Origin: Pseudofabraea citricarpa
Taxonomy: Eukaryota > Ascomycota > Leotiomycetes > Helotiales > Dermateaceae
DNA: 64,000 nt
Direction of reading: 5' to 3'
NCBI GenBank assembly: GCA_029641185.1
Contig: JAPWGK010000024.1
Location: forward strand, 248,001-312,000
The notes under the pieces were generated by a model, which saw only the letters and a list, made by a program, of their open reading frames with translations, was not told the DNA's origin and did not search any database. This document shows positions 29,359 to 63,506 of the stretch, piece after piece; position 1 is the first letter of the stretch, and each line of letters opens with the position of its first letter. Position numbers and translations under genes: made by a program.

Positions 29359-30793
29359 ATGAACTACACTCTTGCGAACCAGCATGGCAGTCGGGGTCCC
29401 CCTCCACCCCAGCCTGGCCCACCTCCGCCTCCTGCTAATTACCTTCCCCCTCCGGGCGACATGCGAACGTACGCCGTCGCGCCCCCCGCGCAGCAGGTTA
29501 TGGACCTGCACAGTATGTCGCTGACCGAGAAGGGCTGGAAGTACGAATTGAGGATTGAACAGCAGCCCAAGCGTGCGAGGATGTGTGGTTTTGGGGACAA
29601 GGATCGTCGTCCGATTACTCCACCACCGTGTGTGCAATTGATCATAACCGATTCCAACACCGGGAAAGAGGTTGATATCAAGTAAGTACCGTTCCGGGTC
29701 CAGATCCATTGCGCGACTGACGGACCACCTTCAGCTCGATAGACCACAGCATGTTTGTCGTCAACGTCGATTTATGGAACGAGAACGGAGCCCTAGAGGT
29801 GAACTTGGTCAAACACTCCGCGAGCTCACCGGCTATCTCCACTTCAACGCCAACTTCGTACTCCATGCTACAAGCTCAGACGTCGGTGCCCGCCTACTCG
29901 AACATACTTCCGCATCAAGCAAACCACCAGCCAACTCCCGTGGCTTATCAAAATGGTGGTCATTACGGGTACCCCAACCAACCTACTCCTCCACAATATC
30001 AGCAACATCAAGGTGGAGGCTACCCTCACCAACGTCCTCCACCACCGCCTCAGCCTTACCAGAACAGCTATTCGAATGGCCACAATGGCTATCAACCTAA
30101 TCACGGATACCAGCCCGGACCTCCTGGGCCTCCTGGGCCTGCGATGCAGTACCCGCCACAACACCAGCCTCAGTACCAATATAATGGTCACGCTGACAGC
30201 CGGGTCGACTATATCCCGGCTGGAGAGGTTGCGCCCCGGAATGTCTCATCTCTACTAAGCAGGCCACAGGATAATGATCGGCCTCATGATTTGAACCTCC
30301 ATCGCGCACCTGCTAGCTCTACGCAACCCACGGGCATGTTCACCCGAAATCTCATTGGAAGCCTAGCTGCCAGTGCCTTCCGTCTTACCGATACGCAAGA
30401 TAAAATCGGTGTCTGGTTTATCATGCAGGATCTGAGTGTCCGAACAGAAGGTTCCTTCCGGTATGTTTACCACCTCGCGTGTTTGTTACTTATCTAATAT
30501 TTACCAGGTTGCGCTTTTCCTTCGTCAACGTTGGCAACAAGCAAGGCGGGCAAAGTAACGGCGGCTCAATCGTTAACACCGGCAGAGCACCTGTGTTGGC
30601 AGCGGTCTTCTCGGACGTGTTCCAAGTCTACTCGGCCAAGAGATTTCCAGGTGTTGTCGAGAGCACCCCGCTGTCGAAATGTTTTGCTACACAGGGCATC
30701 AAGATTCCTATTAGGAAGGATGGCCAAAATTCGCGAGCAAATGGAGCGAATGCTAACCGTGAAGAAGATGAAGATGATGGAGCTTACCCCTGA
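29359..30793 (+). CDS. velB: Velvet-domain regulator VelB, 444 aa
   Basis: Partner of VeA and VosA in the velvet complex that couples light response, sexual/asexual development and secondary metabolism; moves to the nucleus. Exons are 29359-29681, 29735-30460 and 30508-30793. The N-terminus is Pro-rich. The velvet domain begins near YELRIEQQPKRARMCGFGDKDRR and continues IDHSMFVVNVDLW. It is then interrupted by a long Pro/Gln/Tyr-rich insertion (roughly residues 145-290) and resumes with MFTRNLIGSLAASAFRL and KIGVWFIMQDLSVRTEGSFRLRF. This split domain is the VelB hallmark and separates it from VeA, VosA and VelC. It ends FVNVG...KIPIRKD with an acidic tail. Introns interrupt both conserved halves and restore motifs exactly. 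The gene points into the spaced-repeat array that starts about 365 bp downstream. Confidence 0.96.
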
Positions 30794-31157: not shown

Positions 31158-31667
31158 ATTTCGTTGCACGGCGGATTATTCAGTGAATATCAGACATCTG
31201 ATAGACGTGACGGACCTGAAGTGAACTGCATTTCAATAATCAACTGGCAAGTGAGAACTTCCTTTCGTTGCATGACGGATTTGACAGTAGATAAATATTC
31301 CGACCATCAACTAACTGCTTGGTCACTCAGTCACTATAGTGATAGTCTTCATTTCGTTGCGTGACAGACGACCAAGTGAATACAAAGAATAGCAACTTAA
31401 TAATTAAGAATTACTTTCGATGCATGACGGACCTGACAGTAGATAAATATTCCGATAATCAACTAACTGCTTCGGCACTCACCTTGGTAATAATCTGCAT
31501 TTGGTTGCGTGACGGACCTTCAGGTGAATGAACACTCTAGTATCTATCTAACTTGACAGAACCCACATTTCGTTGCATGACGGACCTCTAAGTAACTGAG
31601 CGGTTTAGCAATTAATCAGCAGAGTATATTTTTTATTTTAGGTTTTTCTTCGTTGCATGACAGACCT
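31158..31667 (-). repeat. Array block 1: reverse-orientation copies
   Basis: Seven copies read TTTCGTTGCATGACGGA on the plus strand (for example at 31261, 31351, 31567 and 31648). They are followed by segments such as CAGTGAAT. No forward copy occurs in this block. Confidence 0.9.
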
Positions 31668-32208
31668 TTCAGTGAATCCTAATATTTCTATAGTTAACTA
31701 ACTGAGTGGTGCTTTGCTTTATCAGATGATAGACTCGCAAGTAAAGAGATAGATATCTTATCCCTTATCTTATCATCCCTTCGTCATGCAACGAAAATTT
31801 GGGATATGATATTCCTTATCCTTATCTTGTGGAATGTTCGATGCAACGAAATATCACCCTTTCAGAGTATGGGTATATCTTGGTTGAAGCTAGAGTAGTG
31901 AAGTGTTTTCAGTCCGTCATGCAACATAAGATAACTTATTCAAAAGTTTAGAGCAGTGAATTATTTCCAGTCCGTCATGCAACGAAATTCTATAACTTCA
32001 GAAGTATCTGCTCTGAGTATAAATTATATGTATCATCTCCCAGCTAAACTTCTTATTTATATATTAGGTTTAGGGTTTTCAGTCCGTCATGCAACAAAGT
32101 ATAACCTGTCTAAGGGTTAAGCAGAGTAGTGTTTCTAGTCTGTTGTATAACAAAAAGTTATTTCTTATACTATCTATATATAAAAGAGGTGACTTAGAAG
32201 TGAATAAA

Positions 32209-32585
32209 TATCCGTCATGCAACGGAACCTAGCCCTTTTATCAATATATATCTCCTAGTGAAAGCTTGAATGATAAAGTATCTCTAGATTGATATATAAC
32301 AAAGAGTTATTTCTATTGCTACCTACCTTCTATTAGTAGTTATAATAGCAAGTAAGTTATAATTAAGTGGATATCTGTTATGTAATAAAAAGTTATACTT
32401 GTATAATCAATTAGGTAGCTAGAAGAGTAAAGTATTTCTACTCCGTTATACAACGAAAAATCATTTACCAAGCTATATAGAAAGTAAGTCACAAGTAGAT
32501 GAATATCTGTTATATAACGAAAAGTTATCTTCCAAGACGTATAGAAAGTGAGTCACAAGTGAATAAATGTCCGTCATACAACGAA
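32209..32585 (+). repeat. Higher-order repeat copy A (partner at 32880-33256)
   Basis: This segment carries the same succession of spacers and motif variants as 32880-33256, including TTTCTATTGCTACCTA, AGTAGTTATAATAGCAAG and AGACGTATAGAAAGTGAGTC in the same order. The two copies differ mainly by transitions. Confidence 0.85.
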
Positions 32586-32879
32586 ATTGCTAGATAAGCT
32601 GGCTTCTTTCTAATTAAAATGAATTTCTACTCCGTCATGCGATGAAAGTCAACACAGCTAGATATTATAAATCAAAATCTGTCATATAATAAAATCAACA
32701 GATACCTAGGCTATGCTGGCTTCCTTCGGATAAAGATATGTTACTACTCACTCTGTTATGCAACGAAAAGATATTTCCTTTACTATTTACTTAGACAAAT
32801 AAGTGAAGACTTAATTGGGAGTCCGTTACGTAACGAAATTAAGAGATAGGTTAGCTTCTAGGATAGATAAGTTTCCGCT

Positions 32880-33256
32880 TTGTCCGTCATGCAACGAAAC
32901 CTAACCCTTTTATCAAAGTATATCTCCTAGTAAAAACTTAAATAATAAAGTATCTCCAGATTGCTATACAACAAAGGGTTATTTCTATTGCTACCTATAT
33001 TCTATTAGTAGTTATAATAGCAAGTGAGTTACAATTGAGTAGATATCTGTTATATAACGAAAAGTTATACTTGTATACTCAAGTAAGTAGCTTGAAGAGT
33101 AAAATGTTTCTACTCTGTTATATAACAAAAAATCATTTATTAAGCTATATAGAAAGTAAGTCACAAGTGGATAAATATCTGTTATATAACAAAAAGTTAT
33201 CTTCTAAGACGTATAGAAAGTGAGTCACAAGTAAATGGATGTCCGTCATGCAACGA
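32880..33256 (+). repeat. Higher-order repeat copy B (partner at 32209-32585)
   Basis: Second copy of the roughly 375-bp composite unit, about 670 bp downstream of the first. It holds about six motif copies at the same relative positions. Confidence 0.85.
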
Positions 33257-33457
33257 AACGGATTTATATAGTTAGATATAACTATATAACTACACAGACA
33301 GGTGAGTGAAGAGTGAATTCATGGTCCGTTACACAACGAAATTACTAGACAGGTTGGCTTCTAGGATAGATGAGTTTCCGCTTTGTCCGTCATACAACAA
33401 AACAGAACTTAATATAACTGGATATAATCAGACAACTGAGTGAAGAGTGAATCTGGA

Positions 33458-35388
33458 GTTCGTCATGCAACGAAAAGTGATGCAGTTCGATAACTAACTG
33501 ACTGAGTGAATGGTGGATTCAGAGGCCGTCACGCAACGAAACATAACCTATTCAAAGCCTAAAGTCTGCGGACTTGGAAAGTGAATTGTTGTTACTCCGT
33601 CATGCAACGAAATCTCAATCCACTTCTTTTCTGAAAATATCAGTTCCCAGTCTGTCATGCAACGAAATAGAATACCAAACAGGCAAGTAAGTGAAAAGTG
33701 AATGCAGAATCTGTTATGCAACGAGATGGGATTTGAATACCTGGAAATATGAGGGAAGTGAATTCAGAGTCCGTCACGCAACGAAATGCTAATCCACCTC
33801 CTTCTTAAAGCGCTAGTCCTCAGTCCGTGATGCAACGAAATGCTAATCTACCTCCTTTTTAGAAGCGCTAGTCCTCAGTCCGTAATGCAACGAAATGCTA
33901 ATCCACCTCCTTTTTGAAGCGCTAGTCCCCAGTCTGTAATGCAACAAAACAGAACACCAGATAAGTAAATGAGTCACAAGTGAATACCAATCGTCATGCA
34001 ACGAAAAGTGATGCAGCTAAATATAGCTGGAGAAGCAAGTGAAACGTGAATGTAGAGTCCGTCATGCAACGGAATCCTAAAAGAACTCTGTCTGTTATAT
34101 AACGAAACAAAATATAGCTGGATAAGGATGAGCAGACAAGTAAGTGAATAGTGGTTTCTAGTCTGTTATACTACGAAACAGGCTATAGTTAGGTATAACC
34201 AGACAATCAACTGAGTGAAGAGTGAGTGTAGACTCCGTCACGCAACGAAACCTAAGAAGATACTTATCAAATACCTAATTATTATTATCTATCTTATTAC
34301 AAAAGTTCGTCATGCAACGAAATAGAAATTTATACAGCTAGCTAGGTAGATAGGTATATCCAGACAAGTGAGTGAAGAGTGAATCCAGAGCCCGTCATGC
34401 AACGAAATCCTAACCTAACTATGTGAGAGTTATAATTTCTAGTCCGTCATGTAACGAAACTCAAAATATCAGATATCTGACAAATCAGAATCACCTGTTA
34501 TCTAGTATCTTATCTAGAAGTTCGTCATGCAACGAAGCCCGATTACTTGCCACTATCTCGTCTGTTATCTGCTATCTTATCACATAAGTCCGTCATGTAA
34601 CGAAGGGCGGCTGCAGAGTATTACTAGCAAGCAGGTATAGTAGCAAGTAAGTGAACAGTAGGTTTCGAAGTCCGTCATGCAACGAGATCCAAGCATCTAT
34701 CATCTATCATCTGCTATCTGTTATCTGTTATCTAGAAATCCGTCATGCAACAGAGACTGATTGCTTGCAACTATCATCTATCATCTCCCACCTTATCAGA
34801 TAAGTCCGTCACGCAACGAAATCCAAGCATAACATATCAGATACCTAGCTGCTATCTGCTTTCTTATCACATGAGTCCGTCATGCAACGAAGAGCGACTG
34901 CAGAGTACTAACTACTAGCAGGCAAGTAAAGCAAGAGAGTGAAGAGTGAATCTATAGTCCGTCATGCAACGAGATCTAAAGTACCAGATATCTATCTGGT
35001 TGCTTGTTATTCCTTATCTAGCAGTCCGTCACGCAACGAGATATCCAAGCCTCTATCATCTGTTATCTGTTATCTGGAAATCCGTCATGCAACGAAATCC
35101 AAGCATAATAGATCAGATAGCCAGCTGCTATCTGCTTTCTTATCTTATAGGTCCGTCATGCAACGAGATCTAAGATACCTGGTTGCTATCACTTGTTATT
35201 ATCTGTTATCTAGAAGTCCGTCACGCAACGAAACCCAAGTATAATAAATATATCAGATACCTACCTAGGTAGTTGTTATCTGTTATCTACAAGTCCGTCG
35301 CGCAACGAAATGCTACAATCGAGTTTTGTAGTCAGCAAGCGGAGCAGCAAGAGTGAAGAGTGAATCATAGGTCCGTCACGCAACGAAA
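33458..35388 (+). repeat. Array block 3: forward copies, well conserved
   Basis: Most copies keep CCGTCAYGCAACGAAA. Between 33767 and 33950 a unit of about 55 bp (spacer CTAATCCACCTCCTT...GCGCTAGTCC plus motif) is repeated three times. Further right the spacers are rich in TATCTGTTATCT. Confidence 0.9.
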
Positions 35389-35766: not shown

Positions 35767-36352
35767 TCAAGCCTTAGCCTTCTTGCCCGTGAGCCACTCC
35801 TTGCCCTTCTCAGCGAGGCCTTTCGGCTGGTGCTGGTGCTGGCCAGCCTCGTCGTCCTCGATGAGCACGGCACTGTCGTCCTTGTGCGAGCGCTCGAGGT
35901 CCTCCTTGGAAGGCTTGAAGACGTTAGCGGCACCACCGCGACCGACGTGCTGCGAGCCGCCGGATTCTCTGCGCGGGTGTCCCACGACATCCTGTGCGCG
36001 GCGCGCCTCGGCCGGGTCGTTGTTCTTCGCCATGTTGCCCGAGCCGCCGCGGCCCGTCGTGTAGACTTCTGACTTGATGGTCGGCGTCTCGAGCGTCACG
36101 GGGTCGGCGTCTGCTGCTGAGTGGCCCATGTTGCCTGGAGGGAGGGAGTGGTTAGCTAACTATTCCCTTTTTTTTCTTTTTTTCTTTTTTTTTAGGATTG
36201 GGGATTTGGGAAGATCATTATCTTCTTGAGTAAGTGAGAAAATTGTACGCACCTGCGCCGCCTCGGCCGTGGGAGATTCCTGCTGCTCGACGGGACGATG
36301 AAGAGCTGCGTCGGCCTTGCTGAGCAAGAGATGCAGGGATTGCTGCCGACAT
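35767..36352 (-). CDS. DUF3602 (GRGGAGN-repeat) protein, 155 aa
   Basis: Small hydrophilic fungal protein of unknown function. Exons are 36352-36253 and 36134-35767 with a 118-bp intron inside the first GRGGAGN motif, which is rebuilt as GRGGAGNMGHS. Two further motif copies are GRGGSGNM and GRGGAANVF, the hallmark of DUF3602. The protein is Ser/Arg-rich at the N-terminus, has no signal peptide or membrane segment, and ends with a Lys-rich GLAEKGKEWLTGKK tail. It ends about 380 bp from the last good copy of the spaced-repeat array. Function cannot be assigned. Confidence 0.87.
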
Positions 36353-40982: not shown

Positions 40983-43900
40983 TCAAACTCTCGCCTGCAA
41001 AATCTTAAACTTAACGATGCGATGCTGGCAGCGAAAAGAACAGGCCTCTCTCGTCTCCACCTCGACATGCATGCCATCACAGCCCGTAAAGTCGATCCAC
41101 GCACCATTCTGACCGAGGCCAGCAACAAAGCGATAGACGGCCAAGACACGCAGCGAGCGGCCATGCTCTCCATGCTGCATCTCGACGACCTGGATTCCGG
41201 GCCCGCGCCAGAGCATGTAGTGGCGCTGCAGGTAGGGCGGCAGCGTGCCGTATTCGTGGAGGGGCGCATAGTCGCCGTACTTGATCAGCGAGTCCATCAG
41301 CTGCTTCACGAGCTGGAACGAGTACTCGGACAGGAAAGCGGCGCCGCCGATCTCTGGCCCCGCGCAGCAGAAGATGGGGTTTTCCGCTGGTGCTTGGTTC
41401 CTGCATCACCATCGCTCCGCGTTAGCTTGTCTCCTGACGAGGTACGTACGGGAAGGCTTGCGGACTTCGTGGGGGGGGCGCCGGGGTCTACTTACACTTC
41501 CCACTGAGGACGTTGCACTGCTGCTGTTGCTGTTGCTGCACGTCTGACTGTAGCGAGCTGTCTCAATGGTGGTCGTCCGGCTTTCTGTGCCCGTCCTTGT
41601 GCTGGTGCCTGTGCTCGGGTTTGCTGTGCTGCACTAGGTGCTTGTCTTGGGGTTGGAAGAGGTGCATATCTTTGTGCCACAGGAAGTCCAGGAACTGGAG
41701 TTGGCACTTGTCCTCGTGCTGGAGCTGGAACTGGAACAGGAGCTGGAACTGGAGCTGGAAAGGGTGGCAGTTGTATTGGAACTGGTGCATTTACTCGAGC
41801 TGGAGCTGGAACTGGAACAGGAACTGAAAAAGGTGGCAGTTGTATTGGAGCAGGTGGATTTACTCGAGCTGGAGCTGGAACTGGAACTGGAACTGAAAAA
41901 GGTGGCAGTTGCATTGGAGCAGGTGTATTTGCTCGAGCTGGAGCTGGAACTGGAACAGGAGCTGGAACTGGAACTGGAGCTGGAAAAGGTGGCAGTTGTA
42001 TTGGGGCAGGTGTGTTTACTCGAGCTGGAGCTGAAACTGGAACAGGAAGAGGTGCATATATCGAAGTATACGGAGCTGTATGTACCGGACCAACTGCTAG
42101 CTTAGTTATCAACTCAACATATCTATTAATACCTCCGACGCCATATTCGTGCCCATCGGATTCCTGTGCCTTTGGGGGGTCGGGAGACTGAGAGGCGTTT
42201 TCAGGATCCTCAGAAGCACCATCCAAGACAAAAGGACTGTGGAAACAACAGTTAGCTATCACCTCTCACACCCTCAAAGGCCATAGATCGACGCGCAACA
42301 TGAAAAGTAACAGCGGAGACATACTTTGCGCTCGTATTTGCACCTTTCTTCTTGCTGTTCTGCGCACCCGTAGCTCTAGGAGTAGTGTCCACTGTGGAAG
42401 TAAAAGGGCTAGATGGAGATCAGTCAGCTGTCATCTTTCATATCCTCAAACACAATAGATCGTCGCGTAAAGGAGACAGGGGGATCATACTATGCGTGCG
42501 CATTTGCACCTCTACGCATGCTGTTCAGCGCATCTTCAGTAGTTGTGGTAACCATGGAGTTCGTTTCAAATGGACTGTGTGAACACCAGTTAGCTATCAA
42601 CCTGCATGCGCCCGAAAGACAATAGGTAGATGCGCAAAAAGAGGAAGAGAGGAGAGGAGAGAAGGGAAACATACCTCGCGTTGAAAGTTGCGCTTTCGTT
42701 CATGTTATGTTGTTCTTGTGTTGCCTCAGGGGAAGCCATTGCGCTAGGAGTATCGTCCATAGTGAAGAAGCTAGATTTAGATCGATAAGTTACCATCAAA
42801 GAGAGTATGAGGAGAAGGAGGAGAGAGAAAGATAAAGAGAAGAATCATACCTCGCGTTCTCTCTTGCGCGTTCGGCCTCAGCTTCAGCGTAGATCTGGTC
42901 AATAACCATACCGTAATCCTCTGAAGAGAGATGGCTTAGATCGACGGGATCAAGGAACATAGGCTCTTGCTCTTCTTGAGGATCTTCAAGGTAGGCGAAG
43001 GGATCTACTACACCTACGTGTGGTATATCGTTCCTCCTATTTTGCGTGCACGTTGGTTAGCTTTAGCACTCTCTCCCTGTTGCTTTGTCTGTCTGTGGAG
43101 GTGAAAATGAAAGTGAGGTTGAAGGTGAAGGTGGAAGTGAAGGGGGAGGTGAAGGTGAACCAGATGAATGGGAATAGATGGGGTGAATATTACAGGTCGT
43201 ATGGTTTCTCTCGCAAAAGCTTGGGTCGCTTGTCACGGTGCAAGTTGGCTTCTGCTTCTTTGCGTTCTTCTTCGTGTATTAGTCCTATCCGTGCAAGAGC
43301 CGATTCGAGTCTGAACTCAGGGCGAATGTAATATGGTCTACTGTGCAATGGTAAGTCTCGTGACTCAGTGGGATGCTATAGAAGAAGGGGAGAGATACTT
43401 TCCAGGAACAGCTTCTTCAACAGATTCTTGGCCTTGAACTTCAGCTGGATCTTCGACTTCATCTTCGACTTCATCTTCGACTTGATCGTAGACTTGATCG
43501 TAGACTTGATCGTAGACTTGATCGTAGACTTCATCTTCACCTTCATCTTCGACTTCATCTTCGACTTCATCCTCGACTTCATCTTCGACTGGATCGTAGA
43601 CTGGATCGTAGACTGGATCGTAGACTGGATCGTAGACTGGATCGTAGACTGGATCGTAGACTTCATCTTCGACTGGATCGTAGACTTGGTCGTCGACTTC
43701 ATCTTCAGTTTGCAATATACTTCTGCTGTATCAGTGAGAATGTTATATATTGGGTGGTAGGTCTCTCAGAAACTTACCTGTCTGTCGTCTCAGAAACTGA
43801 GGAGAAGGAGGTCGTAGGAGATTGTGGGATATCTCTCCTATACCAATTGAGAATCAGATTCTCTATGAAGACAGATGGTTCAAGAAACTTACTCGTGAGC

Positions 43901-44981
43901 TACTCTTTCAGAAACTAATGGATCAATCCAAGTTTGTGCTTGATTTCTACCGCATCATTCAGAATCTGATAAACCAACAAGACACAGAGATTTGAGAAAC
44001 ATACTCTTGGGCTGTTCTTTCAGAAACTAATGGATCGATCCAAGTTTCTGCTTGGTTTCTACCGTATCATTCAGAATCTGACAAACCATTAAGACAGAGA
44101 GACTTGAGAAACATACTCTTGGGCTATTCTTTCGGTAAATGGAGAGTGCGTATTATCTTGTCCTGGGATATCGCTACATCGATTAAAATATGATTTAGCA
44201 GTCCAAAGTCCAGCGAGAACTCACACTTGAGCCAGTCCCGCGGTAAGTGCACCTGACATAAATAAATCATTCCTATTTTATCATTCAGTATCTGATACTC
44301 TAGCAAGATAGGCAGGAGGTCAATCAACACTTACTCATCAATAGGCGAGGATTTAGGTGCCTGCTGAGGCATAGGAATGCCCACGCTGTCGGCATCAGAA
44401 TCGTCCCCAGAAACTTCTTGCGACGGAAAATCGTCATCTCCACCAGCCATCTTAACGAGTTTGGATTCTTTAGATCTTCTGCCTCCTTGTACAACTCGTT
44501 CAGTGGCCCGGATCAGTCTATGAGCCTGCACCTTCCAAGGCCGGCCATGGTGTCGACACTTCAAACTCCAACGGGCCACCAGCGTCGAGCCGAATGATGT
44601 CTTTACTTGCGAGCCCTTACTGATCAGTCTGAATAGCTCACTGTCATCTGGCTCAACGTCGACTTTCTTGCCGGATTTGGCGGGCAAAAACCATGCTGTC
44701 TCTTGAGGATGCTCCGTTTCTAGCCCGACCAAGTAGAAGGCATTAAACGTGTATACCGTTGCACTCATCCTCGAAACGACTTTGTATTTGTGTCCCAGCT
44801 TGTGATTGATTGCACTGAGGAGATTGTGCATGAGGTTGTGGAGATTGTTCTGGACAGTGGCTGTTGTGTCGTCTCGGAAGACAGGACCAGTGTCGATAGC
44901 CATGCTTGAACAGCAGAGCTCGAGGTGTTCTGGATCCTTTGCAGTCCCTAGGAAGTACGTATCCCTGTTTGTAGGATCCAT
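40983..44981 (-). CDS. Uncharacterised 983-aa protein encoded by 13 exons, all introns phase 2, with tandem-duplicated exons
   Basis: Exons: 44981-44335, 44173-44117, 44058-44005, 43946-43893, 43837-43778, 43722-43399, 43340-43194, 43036-42851, 42770-42675, 42574-42491, 42408-42325, 42236-41496 and 41400-40983; total 984 codons with stop. Every junction splits after the second codon base. I do not recognise the N-terminal (1-170) or C-terminal (about 845-983) domains; both look globular. Exons 3 and 4 encode near-identical 18-residue modules (NQAETWIDPLVSERTAQE and NQAQTWIDPLVSERVAHE). Exon 6 is an acidic VYDP/VYDQ/VEDE repeat. Exons 9-12 start with related x-PF or S-FF modules. Exon 12 is a Pro-rich repeat (PVPVPAPAR). 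No signal peptide. Exon 2 could be preceded by one more small exon near 44250. The model is supported by frame conservation over 12 introns; function is unknown. Confidence 0.75.
41640..42060 (-). repeat. Coding minisatellite, Pro/Ala/Val-rich units
   Basis: Four to five imperfect units of about 23-29 residues in exon 12, each with an AR-x-N-x-PAPIQLPPF core followed by PVPVPAPA runs. Likely disordered and prone to length change. Confidence 0.9.
43440..43700 (-). repeat. Coding minisatellite, 12-bp units (VYDP/VYDQ/VEDE)
   Basis: Tandem four-codon units inside exon 6 encode acidic tetrapeptides: a VYDP block, a VEDE block and a VYDQ block. The opposite strand is also open, which is a by-product. 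Confidence 0.9.
43893..44173 (-). repeat. Tandem exon-intron units, about 112-115 bp, three copies
   Basis: Exons 2, 3 and 4 of the gene above start at 44173, 44058 and 43946, a spacing of 115 and 112 bp. The introns are also alike (GTATGTTTCTC donors and TTCAGAATCTGA-type sequence on one strand), so whole exon-intron units were duplicated. Confidence 0.85.
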
Positions 44982-62493: not shown

Positions 62494-63506
62494 TTCCAGA
62501 CTTGTTCTATCTATAGTTTGGAGATCTGGAGGCTGTTCTAACCCCGAGATGTTGGTGACGAAGGAGGCTCTTTGCTAAAACGTAATAGTCTCAATTGAAG
62601 GCTCGGCGCGATGAATCCATGACGATGTCAAGAGAATAAAACCTAGAATCCCACGCGTAATTTGCATCTAACTAATCGCATTGCAGAACTTGCTTTGAGG
62701 GTTTTCGGCTGCAAGATCCGTCTTGGTATGGCGAAACTCGTGTAATATTATGTGTGCTAAAGCCTGCGAGTTGGGAGATCTTGGCGTGAGAAAACCCTCT
62801 TCGTATAATAATCGATGTGGAATAAATAATAGAAGACTTCTAATGGCTTGTATGAAGAAAGGGCTTTTTTGTAACTTGCCTGGCTGTTTGTTGGTTTTGA
62901 AAGTAATTGCAGGTCTGTACTAAAGCAGATCTCTTCATTTTGTCTAAGATTCCTATGCATAATCTATTCGAGTTATAGGCAGCATCTAAATAGCCAGAGA
63001 ATTGTGTATTATTTGGGAGATAGTTCATACTATAAGGACTTTGAGAGCATTTCAGTTCCAAATATGAAAACATTTGATCGAGATGGCGACCTGCCGAGCT
63101 CCCGTCCAGGTTGGTTTCAACTTTAGCGAGCTGGGGCTCCATGTGGATTCGAAGTCCGTCGTGCAACAAAATACAATACATCGGATCACCTGCATAATAT
63201 GACTAAATCCACCCCGAGAGCTGGTAGGTAGGTATTTAGATTGGGAGGCTCAATCGATCACTTTGGAAAAGAGAAATGCACGTGATTGCTTATATCATGT
63301 GATGCCCGGGTTCCGCTTCCGGATGGCGTGCTTCTAGAACAGGGTCGCGGATGGTGATCGGCTTCGCCCTACCCGTTCCGAGGCACAGCCGTCGCCGTCC
63401 ACGCCATCAAAAGACCCTTTTCGTTGTCCTGTCACCTGCCCACCAATATTTCTCCCTCAACAAACAAAACCTCCTACACACGATGCGATAGCAAAGCACC
63501 CCAAAC
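62494..63506. other. Intergenic, 1.0 kb, with a solitary array motif
   Basis: No gene supported. It holds one copy of the 17-bp motif of the 31-35 kb array (listed separately). Confidence 0.5.
63153..63171 (+). repeat. Solitary copy of the spaced-array motif
   Basis: AGTCCGTCGTGCAACAAAAT differs from the array consensus at two positions, both transitions, and keeps the leading AG often seen there. No second copy occurs nearby. Confidence 0.75.

Follow-up and report, generated by a model that had tools for sequence, protein, structure and literature searches.

The array of short repeated motifs in the 64-kb window (the whole stretch of 64,000 nucleotides that was analyzed) belongs to a genome-wide family of site arrays in Pseudofabraea citricarpa. 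The family is real; its details are new, and in kind it comes close to satellites that carry a conserved box. From the pattern of kept and drifted sequence we infer selection, protein binding and an effect on the cell, and we lean modestly to the reading that these are protein-binding-site arrays kept by selection.

The window array and its genome-wide family

A motif scan of the window found 49 copies of the 17-mer TCCGTCATGCAACGAAA at ≤3 mismatches within 31159-35388, against a chance level of 0.14 copies (mean of dinucleotide shuffles of the window, ≤3 mismatches). At ≤4 mismatches there are 53 copies, which makes this the largest of the arrays examined. Decayed copies that remain in register, five more at 5 mismatches and one at 6, bring the total to ~59, in line with the "about 60 copies" of the preliminary description. 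The intervals of 55-80 bp given there are too narrow, the spacing ranging from 33 to 163 bp with decayed copies included. The first 7 copies lie on the minus strand and the rest on the plus strand. The features of the region are as follows.

29542..30793, plus strand: velB, a Velvet factor; exons with Velvet matches up to the stop codon, which ends at 30793; 3' end faces the array
31159..35388, both strands: whole window array, 53 copies at ≤4 mismatches, ~59 with decayed copies
31159..31664, minus strand: left part, 7 motif copies (motif scan)
31159, 31352 and 31648, minus strand: left-part copies with a TTCACT box upstream (by eye)
31780..35388, plus strand: right part, remaining motif copies (motif scan)
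32211..32586, plus strand: first copy of an internal 376-bp duplication whose copies differ in a RIP-like manner, 336/376 identical to 32883-33258
32883..33258, plus strand: second copy of the 376-bp duplication (alignment); motifs inside decay to forms such as TCTGTTATATAACAAAA
33768..33949, plus strand: young run of ~3.3 near-identical 54-bp units (TRF)
35767..36159, minus strand: last open frame of the DUF3602 gene (PF12223 match); 3' end faces the array
63155..63171, plus strand: solitary motif copy with 2 mismatches, preceded by GAAG (motif scan of the window)

With velB coming from the left and the minus-strand DUF3602 gene from the right, both genes converge on the array. The Velvet domain match, the PF12223 match and the orientations agree with its earlier placement between two converging 3' ends. 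The solitary copy at 63155-63171 has no array in the surrounding stretch, and the same is true of single copies at L040:716 and L041:749; these are possible seeds or remains of arrays. Ordinary tandem repeats were also detected by TRF elsewhere in the window, at 41731-42047 (69/87 bp), 43455-43703 (12 bp) and 43883-44133 (112 bp).

The DNA between the motifs had been described as varying. This holds for most spacers, which have drifted, but not for three stretches in which TRF detects repeated units, nor for the 376-bp duplication. Transitions account for 34 of the 40 differences between the two copies of that duplication. The surrounding patch, 32100-33240, has a GC content of 0.302, a TpA/ApT ratio of 1.32 and a (CpA+TpG)/(ApC+GpT) ratio of 0.72; the corresponding values are 0.371, 1.05 and 0.99 for the whole window array and 0.46, 0.78 and 1.23 for the window as a whole. 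By what we take to be the usual RIP thresholds, the patch is RIP-like and the whole window array borderline. For the pooled spacers of the arrays (GC 0.373, TpA/ApT 1.10, (CpA+TpG)/(ApC+GpT) 1.24), one of the two indices is RIP-like and the other is not. In Neurospora, an overall identity of 36% is enough for RIP to recognize interspersed homology, according to the accessible part of that report (PMC4858203).

The preliminary description had proposed a whole-genome search for the 17-mer at ≤3 mismatches. Over 43,985,132 bases in 43 contigs this gave 681 matches versus 80 for a reversed control, and the window array thus belongs to a family. Positions are known for the first 100 of the 681 matches; searches with two more exact patterns yielded another 76 and 14 places. 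The loci examined comprise 20 of 10 kb and 19 short stretches, 7 of the latter picked for a sister motif. The scan for the main motif covered 30 sources (29 loci and the window array; L040, L041 and L043 were left out), and from these the genome holds at least 30 arrays of 3 or more units, with 490 units and 35.9 kb in total and 3 to 53 units each. L011 contributes two clusters and L016 none with 3 or more units. The arrays sit at many interior contig positions, for the most part in intergenic DNA; 24 of 30 are confined to a single strand and 6 hold both. The motif strings were absent from the literature searched, and the titles found by wider searches showed no report of such arrays. A search for relatives by way of a spurious open frame of the array returned 75 candidates, none at E≤10, a weakly informative query that says little about relatives of the array itself. 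A single Rfam match, far below its gathering score, was discarded.

Neighboring genes were called from hexamer-scored open frames at 21 loci (20 plus the window). Ten loci are convergent, nine tandem and one divergent, and one (L021) is without a call; the directions come from a crude score, and a stricter one disagrees at L018, L022, L023, L024 and L028. The sole divergent locus, L016, has two units and weak open frames. That the neighbors are convergent or tandem and almost never divergent favors protein-binding sites placed between genes. Pfam scans of 30 open frames, 28 of them from other array loci and some beyond the immediate neighbors, gave mixed results. Arrays lie near both SNF5-family genes of the genome (2/2) and at 2 of 5 Velvet loci (L012:6827-8887, L027:1815-3791, L026:1416-2603 and window 29542-30793), a post hoc observation that may be due to chance; it may hint at a link with regulators.

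The repeat unit and its divergence

A logo of 353 copies defines the conserved core of the unit as ARG-TCCGTCAYGCAACGAAA-T, positions -3 to +17. Outside the core, to 40 bases on either side, information is at most 0.22 bits. A motif common to 30 arrays, with spacers near background, argues for protein binding. The same sequences bear out the earlier statement that this is not an ordinary minisatellite: the near-identical, fixed-period, head-to-tail units of such a repeat are not found, TRF recognizing just the three stretches, the spacing being variable and the spacers carrying so little information. Dyad symmetry of the motif was no better than in shuffles (P 0.47).

Same-strand intervals below 130 bp (n=328) have a mean of 74 and a median of 72 bp. 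One measures 33 bp and the rest are at least 50, and this floor, with 1 of 328 intervals below 50 bp, is a further point for protein binding. No helical phasing of the motif spacing was found among the 328 intervals. With all neighbors up to 260 bp apart included, there are 460 intervals, of which 429 measure ≤110 bp and 5 <50 bp; few motifs therefore seem to have been lost. Two inverted-orientation motif pairs, each 38 bp apart, lie at L037:567-823 and may represent a duplicated inverted unit. L013 has a long G run <90 bp from its first motif, upstream of the array in motif orientation.

Just upstream of the core, many units carry a second box. Within 24 bp, AGTGAA or TTCACT occurs upstream of 213 of 470 units versus 7 of 470 downstream. 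AGTGAA is found 122 times upstream and 6 times downstream, and TTCACT 91 times and once; shuffling of whole upstream spacers (435 units) leads one to expect 11.5 and 6.6, respectively. The box stands at set distances from the motif in either orientation. This upstream bias, the set distances and the use of either orientation favor a bound site. At least one upstream box is present in 23 of the 30 sources, with both orientations in L023, L028, L033 and the window array, where AGTGAA lies upstream of 18 of 49 copies counted over the whole array. Neither orientation is found upstream in seven sources (L011, L012, L016, L020, L025, L042 and L044). Other local boxes were noted by eye, TTATCTGAAAG in L037 and TAGCGCTAAG in L044.

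A variant of the motif was first met in L043 and L011. It has 133 genome matches at ≤2 mismatches versus 0 in the control, and among the 100 listed many are copies of the first motif. The sister family comprises 72 sites in eight loci (L043 and L045-L051), with the consensus RRGT-N-CGAYATGCAACAAAA in the register of the first motif; the loci were chosen by pattern, so the consensus leans towards that pattern. L043 and L049 also contain copies of the first kind, and L045, L046 and L051 have in common another upstream box, AAGTCTAGCGACGGGGT.

The rates at which motif and spacer diverge were compared in 4891 within-array unit pairs, 741 of which have spacers aligning above the 99.9% null score and within the length limits. 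Pairs whose spacers have diverged by 23-43% (462 pairs) show a difference of 12-15% in the motif, and those with spacers at 16.5% (230 pairs) show 11.2%. In the youngest duplicates (49 pairs with spacers ≥90% identical) the order is reversed, the motif differing by 8.3% versus 4.9% for the spacer; of the 58 motif differences counted in 46 pairs, the last position accounts for 14 and position 8 (T/C) for 10. Over long times the motif is thus more stable than the spacer, which is not so among the youngest pairs. The earlier claim that the motif is what is kept stands for the older units and for the sharing of the motif by 30 arrays, and fails for the youngest pairs. An alignment of units had been named as the place to look for equal rates in motif and spacer; it shows older spacers outpacing the motif and the youngest pairs doing the reverse.

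The slow divergence of the motif despite its CpG sites, together with the few missing motifs, favors protein binding; the youngest pairs and the mismatch limit on copies weaken that reading. The limit of 4 mismatches for gathering copies bounds the motif divergence, and units with 0 to 4 mismatches number 72, 183, 156, 57 and 22; judging from this distribution and the scarcity of long gaps, the limit probably excluded few copies.

Competing origins of the arrays

The arrays may instead be a mutational minisatellite family, an explanation that we rate as distinctly less probable than not, while taking it seriously. Here the motif core would promote nicking, breakage or template switching and thereby seed tandem duplications, and the arrays would be neutral or selfish. 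Tandem duplication is visible in the arrays, unit sequences are array-specific, solitary copies could act as seeds, and a motif no better kept than its spacer in the youngest pairs is what this explanation expects. It also expects old motifs to decay like spacers, yet nearly all intervals are filled and motif divergence reaches a plateau near 15%. Nor does it predict an upstream box in two orientations. In human minisatellites many loci have in common a short core inside otherwise unlike units. The fungal arrays differ from these in that their units have drifted apart even within one array and in having a second box beside the core.

In a narrower form of the protein-binding reading, the arrays would be roadblocks at which the bound protein halts transcription or replication forks in intergenic DNA. 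Known fork barriers include Rtf1 at the RTS1 repeat motifs of fission yeast and TTF-1 at Sal boxes (PMC5368702), and as described in the accessible text of that source these, like the fungal arrays, are repeated short protein-binding motifs adjoining genes. The similar layout, the 24 arrays with all motifs on one strand and the 10 of 21 loci between convergent genes all point in this direction. Of the 9 tandem loci, however, 4 have the motif reading with the genes and 5 have it reading against them, so that there is no polarity towards transcription, and a uniform motif strand is also expected from tandem duplication. RTS1 and Sal boxes, as far as they are covered there, act at one or a few special loci, whereas the fungal arrays occur at dozens and show no polarity towards genes. 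A roadblock is unlikely.

Still less probable is an origin from DNA transposons, in which the motif would have served the transposase as a terminal or subterminal site and the arrays would be non-autonomous derivatives. The window array does begin with minus-strand and end with plus-strand copies, the genome has HTH_Tnp_Tc5 genes, and CENP-B boxes occur in transposon ends, according to the part of the source at hand (PMC7325037). Most arrays nevertheless have all their motifs on one strand, and a search with 1.1 kb of the window array uncovered no long copy elsewhere: the matches are the piece itself, three other places in the same array and stretches of 77-98 bases in two other arrays. All-against-all BLAST of the 21 loci gave mainly short matches around the motif. 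Weak longer similarity exists between some arrays, such as L013 and L018 (75% over 348 bases) and L026 and L027 (68% over 453), which suggests that some have common ancestry. Target-site duplications around single motifs are in no excess over permuted flanks (470 units), and a DDE_1 profile search of the genome gave no match, the control being likewise silent. The lack of long copies elsewhere and of excess target-site duplications upholds the earlier statement that this is not a transposon.

A eukaryotic CRISPR-like memory array can practically be dismissed: the comparison made earlier holds for the look alone, a short repeat with variable DNA between, while the spacers vary in length, are related within arrays (741/4891 pairs) and in the RIP-like patch change along with the motifs, the same motif lies at dozens of nuclear loci with both strands in 6 of 30 arrays, and the two-unit array pattern has 0 matches in viral and 0 in prokaryote contigs.

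A candidate binding protein and the meaning of the arrays

The reverse complement of the motif, TTTCGTTGCATGACGGA, agrees with the human CENP-B box, YTTCGTTGGAARCGGGA, in 13 of its 17 positions when Y and R are included (shuffle P 1.7e-4, post hoc). Since this box was picked for its resemblance, the true odds are weaker than the P value. At the nine positions that we take to be essential for the CENP-B box, the motif agrees at seven (shuffle P 0.0085, post hoc). The motif likewise fits a pattern like the RFX X-box, taken from a consensus that we presume correct and relaxed until it agreed (shuffle P 0.0026), and the resemblance by itself cannot name the binder.

HTH_Tnp_Tc5 profile matches occur at 4 places in the genome, one at 70 bits. 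The gene at the 70-bit match has 1172 relatives at E≤0.001, and among the relatives listed many filamentous ascomycetes are represented. The CENP-B-like protein of the genome is 95% identical to one from Phlyctema vagabunda. P0001, the closest among the best 120 of the 1172 relatives, matches both halves of the CENP-B DNA-binding domain 1HLV (E 3.2e-9). A profile search of the genome for PF04218 gave no match, and the control matched in two bacteria; introns perhaps split the domain. A second possible HTH_Tnp_Tc5 gene, a possible DNA binder, lies at L031:826-3010, with matches in two adjoining open frames, and is repetitive by eye. We know of no defined DNA target for CENP-B-like proteins in filamentous ascomycetes, and none was obvious in the literature surveyed.

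The conserved CENP-B-like protein is, tentatively, the leading candidate for the binder. The box match, the HTH_Tnp_Tc5 gene and the match of P0001 to 1HLV favor it; the post hoc nature of the comparison, the RFX-like match, the missing PF04218 match and a motif strand unrelated to gene direction weaken the protein-binding reading. In fission yeast, homologues of CENP-B maintain fork stability at LTRs, and recruitment of histone deacetylases has been reported for one of them (PMC5368702, accessible part).

The closest published parallel is found in Meloidogyne. In the available portion of that study, a 17-bp motif is kept (15/17 on average) in 11 satellites whose units are 36-74% alike and which occur on all chromosomes; in 10 of these satellites the motif has 10-12 of its 17 positions in common with the human box, and the authors propose CENP-B-like binding (PMC9673304). 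As in the fungus, a 17-bp box is kept amid diverged DNA. The Meloidogyne repeats, as presented there, differ in being satellites of nematodes with a holocentric signal, whereas the fungal arrays are short and gene-flanking, with variable spacing, a second box and RIP-like decay. Human alpha satellite likewise carries a 17-bp box, the one compared above; in the fungus the arrays number in the dozens, lie within chromosome arms, span no more than a few kb and have no fixed period. The pairing centers of C. elegans (ZIM/HIM-8) are also clusters of short motifs that recruit a DNA-binding protein to chromosomal sites. As far as the source at hand describes them, they form one region near one end of each chromosome, in contrast to the several arrays per large contig seen here (PMC3820632).

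In the protein-binding reading, a unit would consist of a 17-20 bp site, the core defined above, followed by dispensable AT-rich DNA, and in ~45% of units a second box, AGTGAAT or ATTCACT, would stand 9-21 bp upstream of the site. Tandem duplication of units, most of them 50-110 bp in length, would enlarge the arrays. The spacers would drift afterwards, and RIP-like mutation would speed the drift where a long near-identical duplication arises, while selection on protein binding would keep the site. The site being CENP-B-box-like, the first candidate to bind it would be the conserved transposase-derived CENP-B-like protein, and the arrays would act as interstitial chromatin or fork-stabilizing platforms between genes. 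More speculatively, and rather doubtful as a whole, the arrays might form an interstitial network, in which a CENP-B-box-like site and its partner box are selected despite RIP-like mutation and read by a domesticated pogo-type protein, organizing chromatin, fork stability or homologue pairing between genes, with the sister motif perhaps read by a paralogue.

The standard repeat finder TRF detects mere fragments of such an array, and others may therefore have been overlooked. If the arrays are the target of CENP-B-like proteins, the role of these proteins away from centromeres could be put to a direct test. The family further suggests a way in which repeated functional sites may persist under RIP-like mutation: the sites stay and the spacers diverge.
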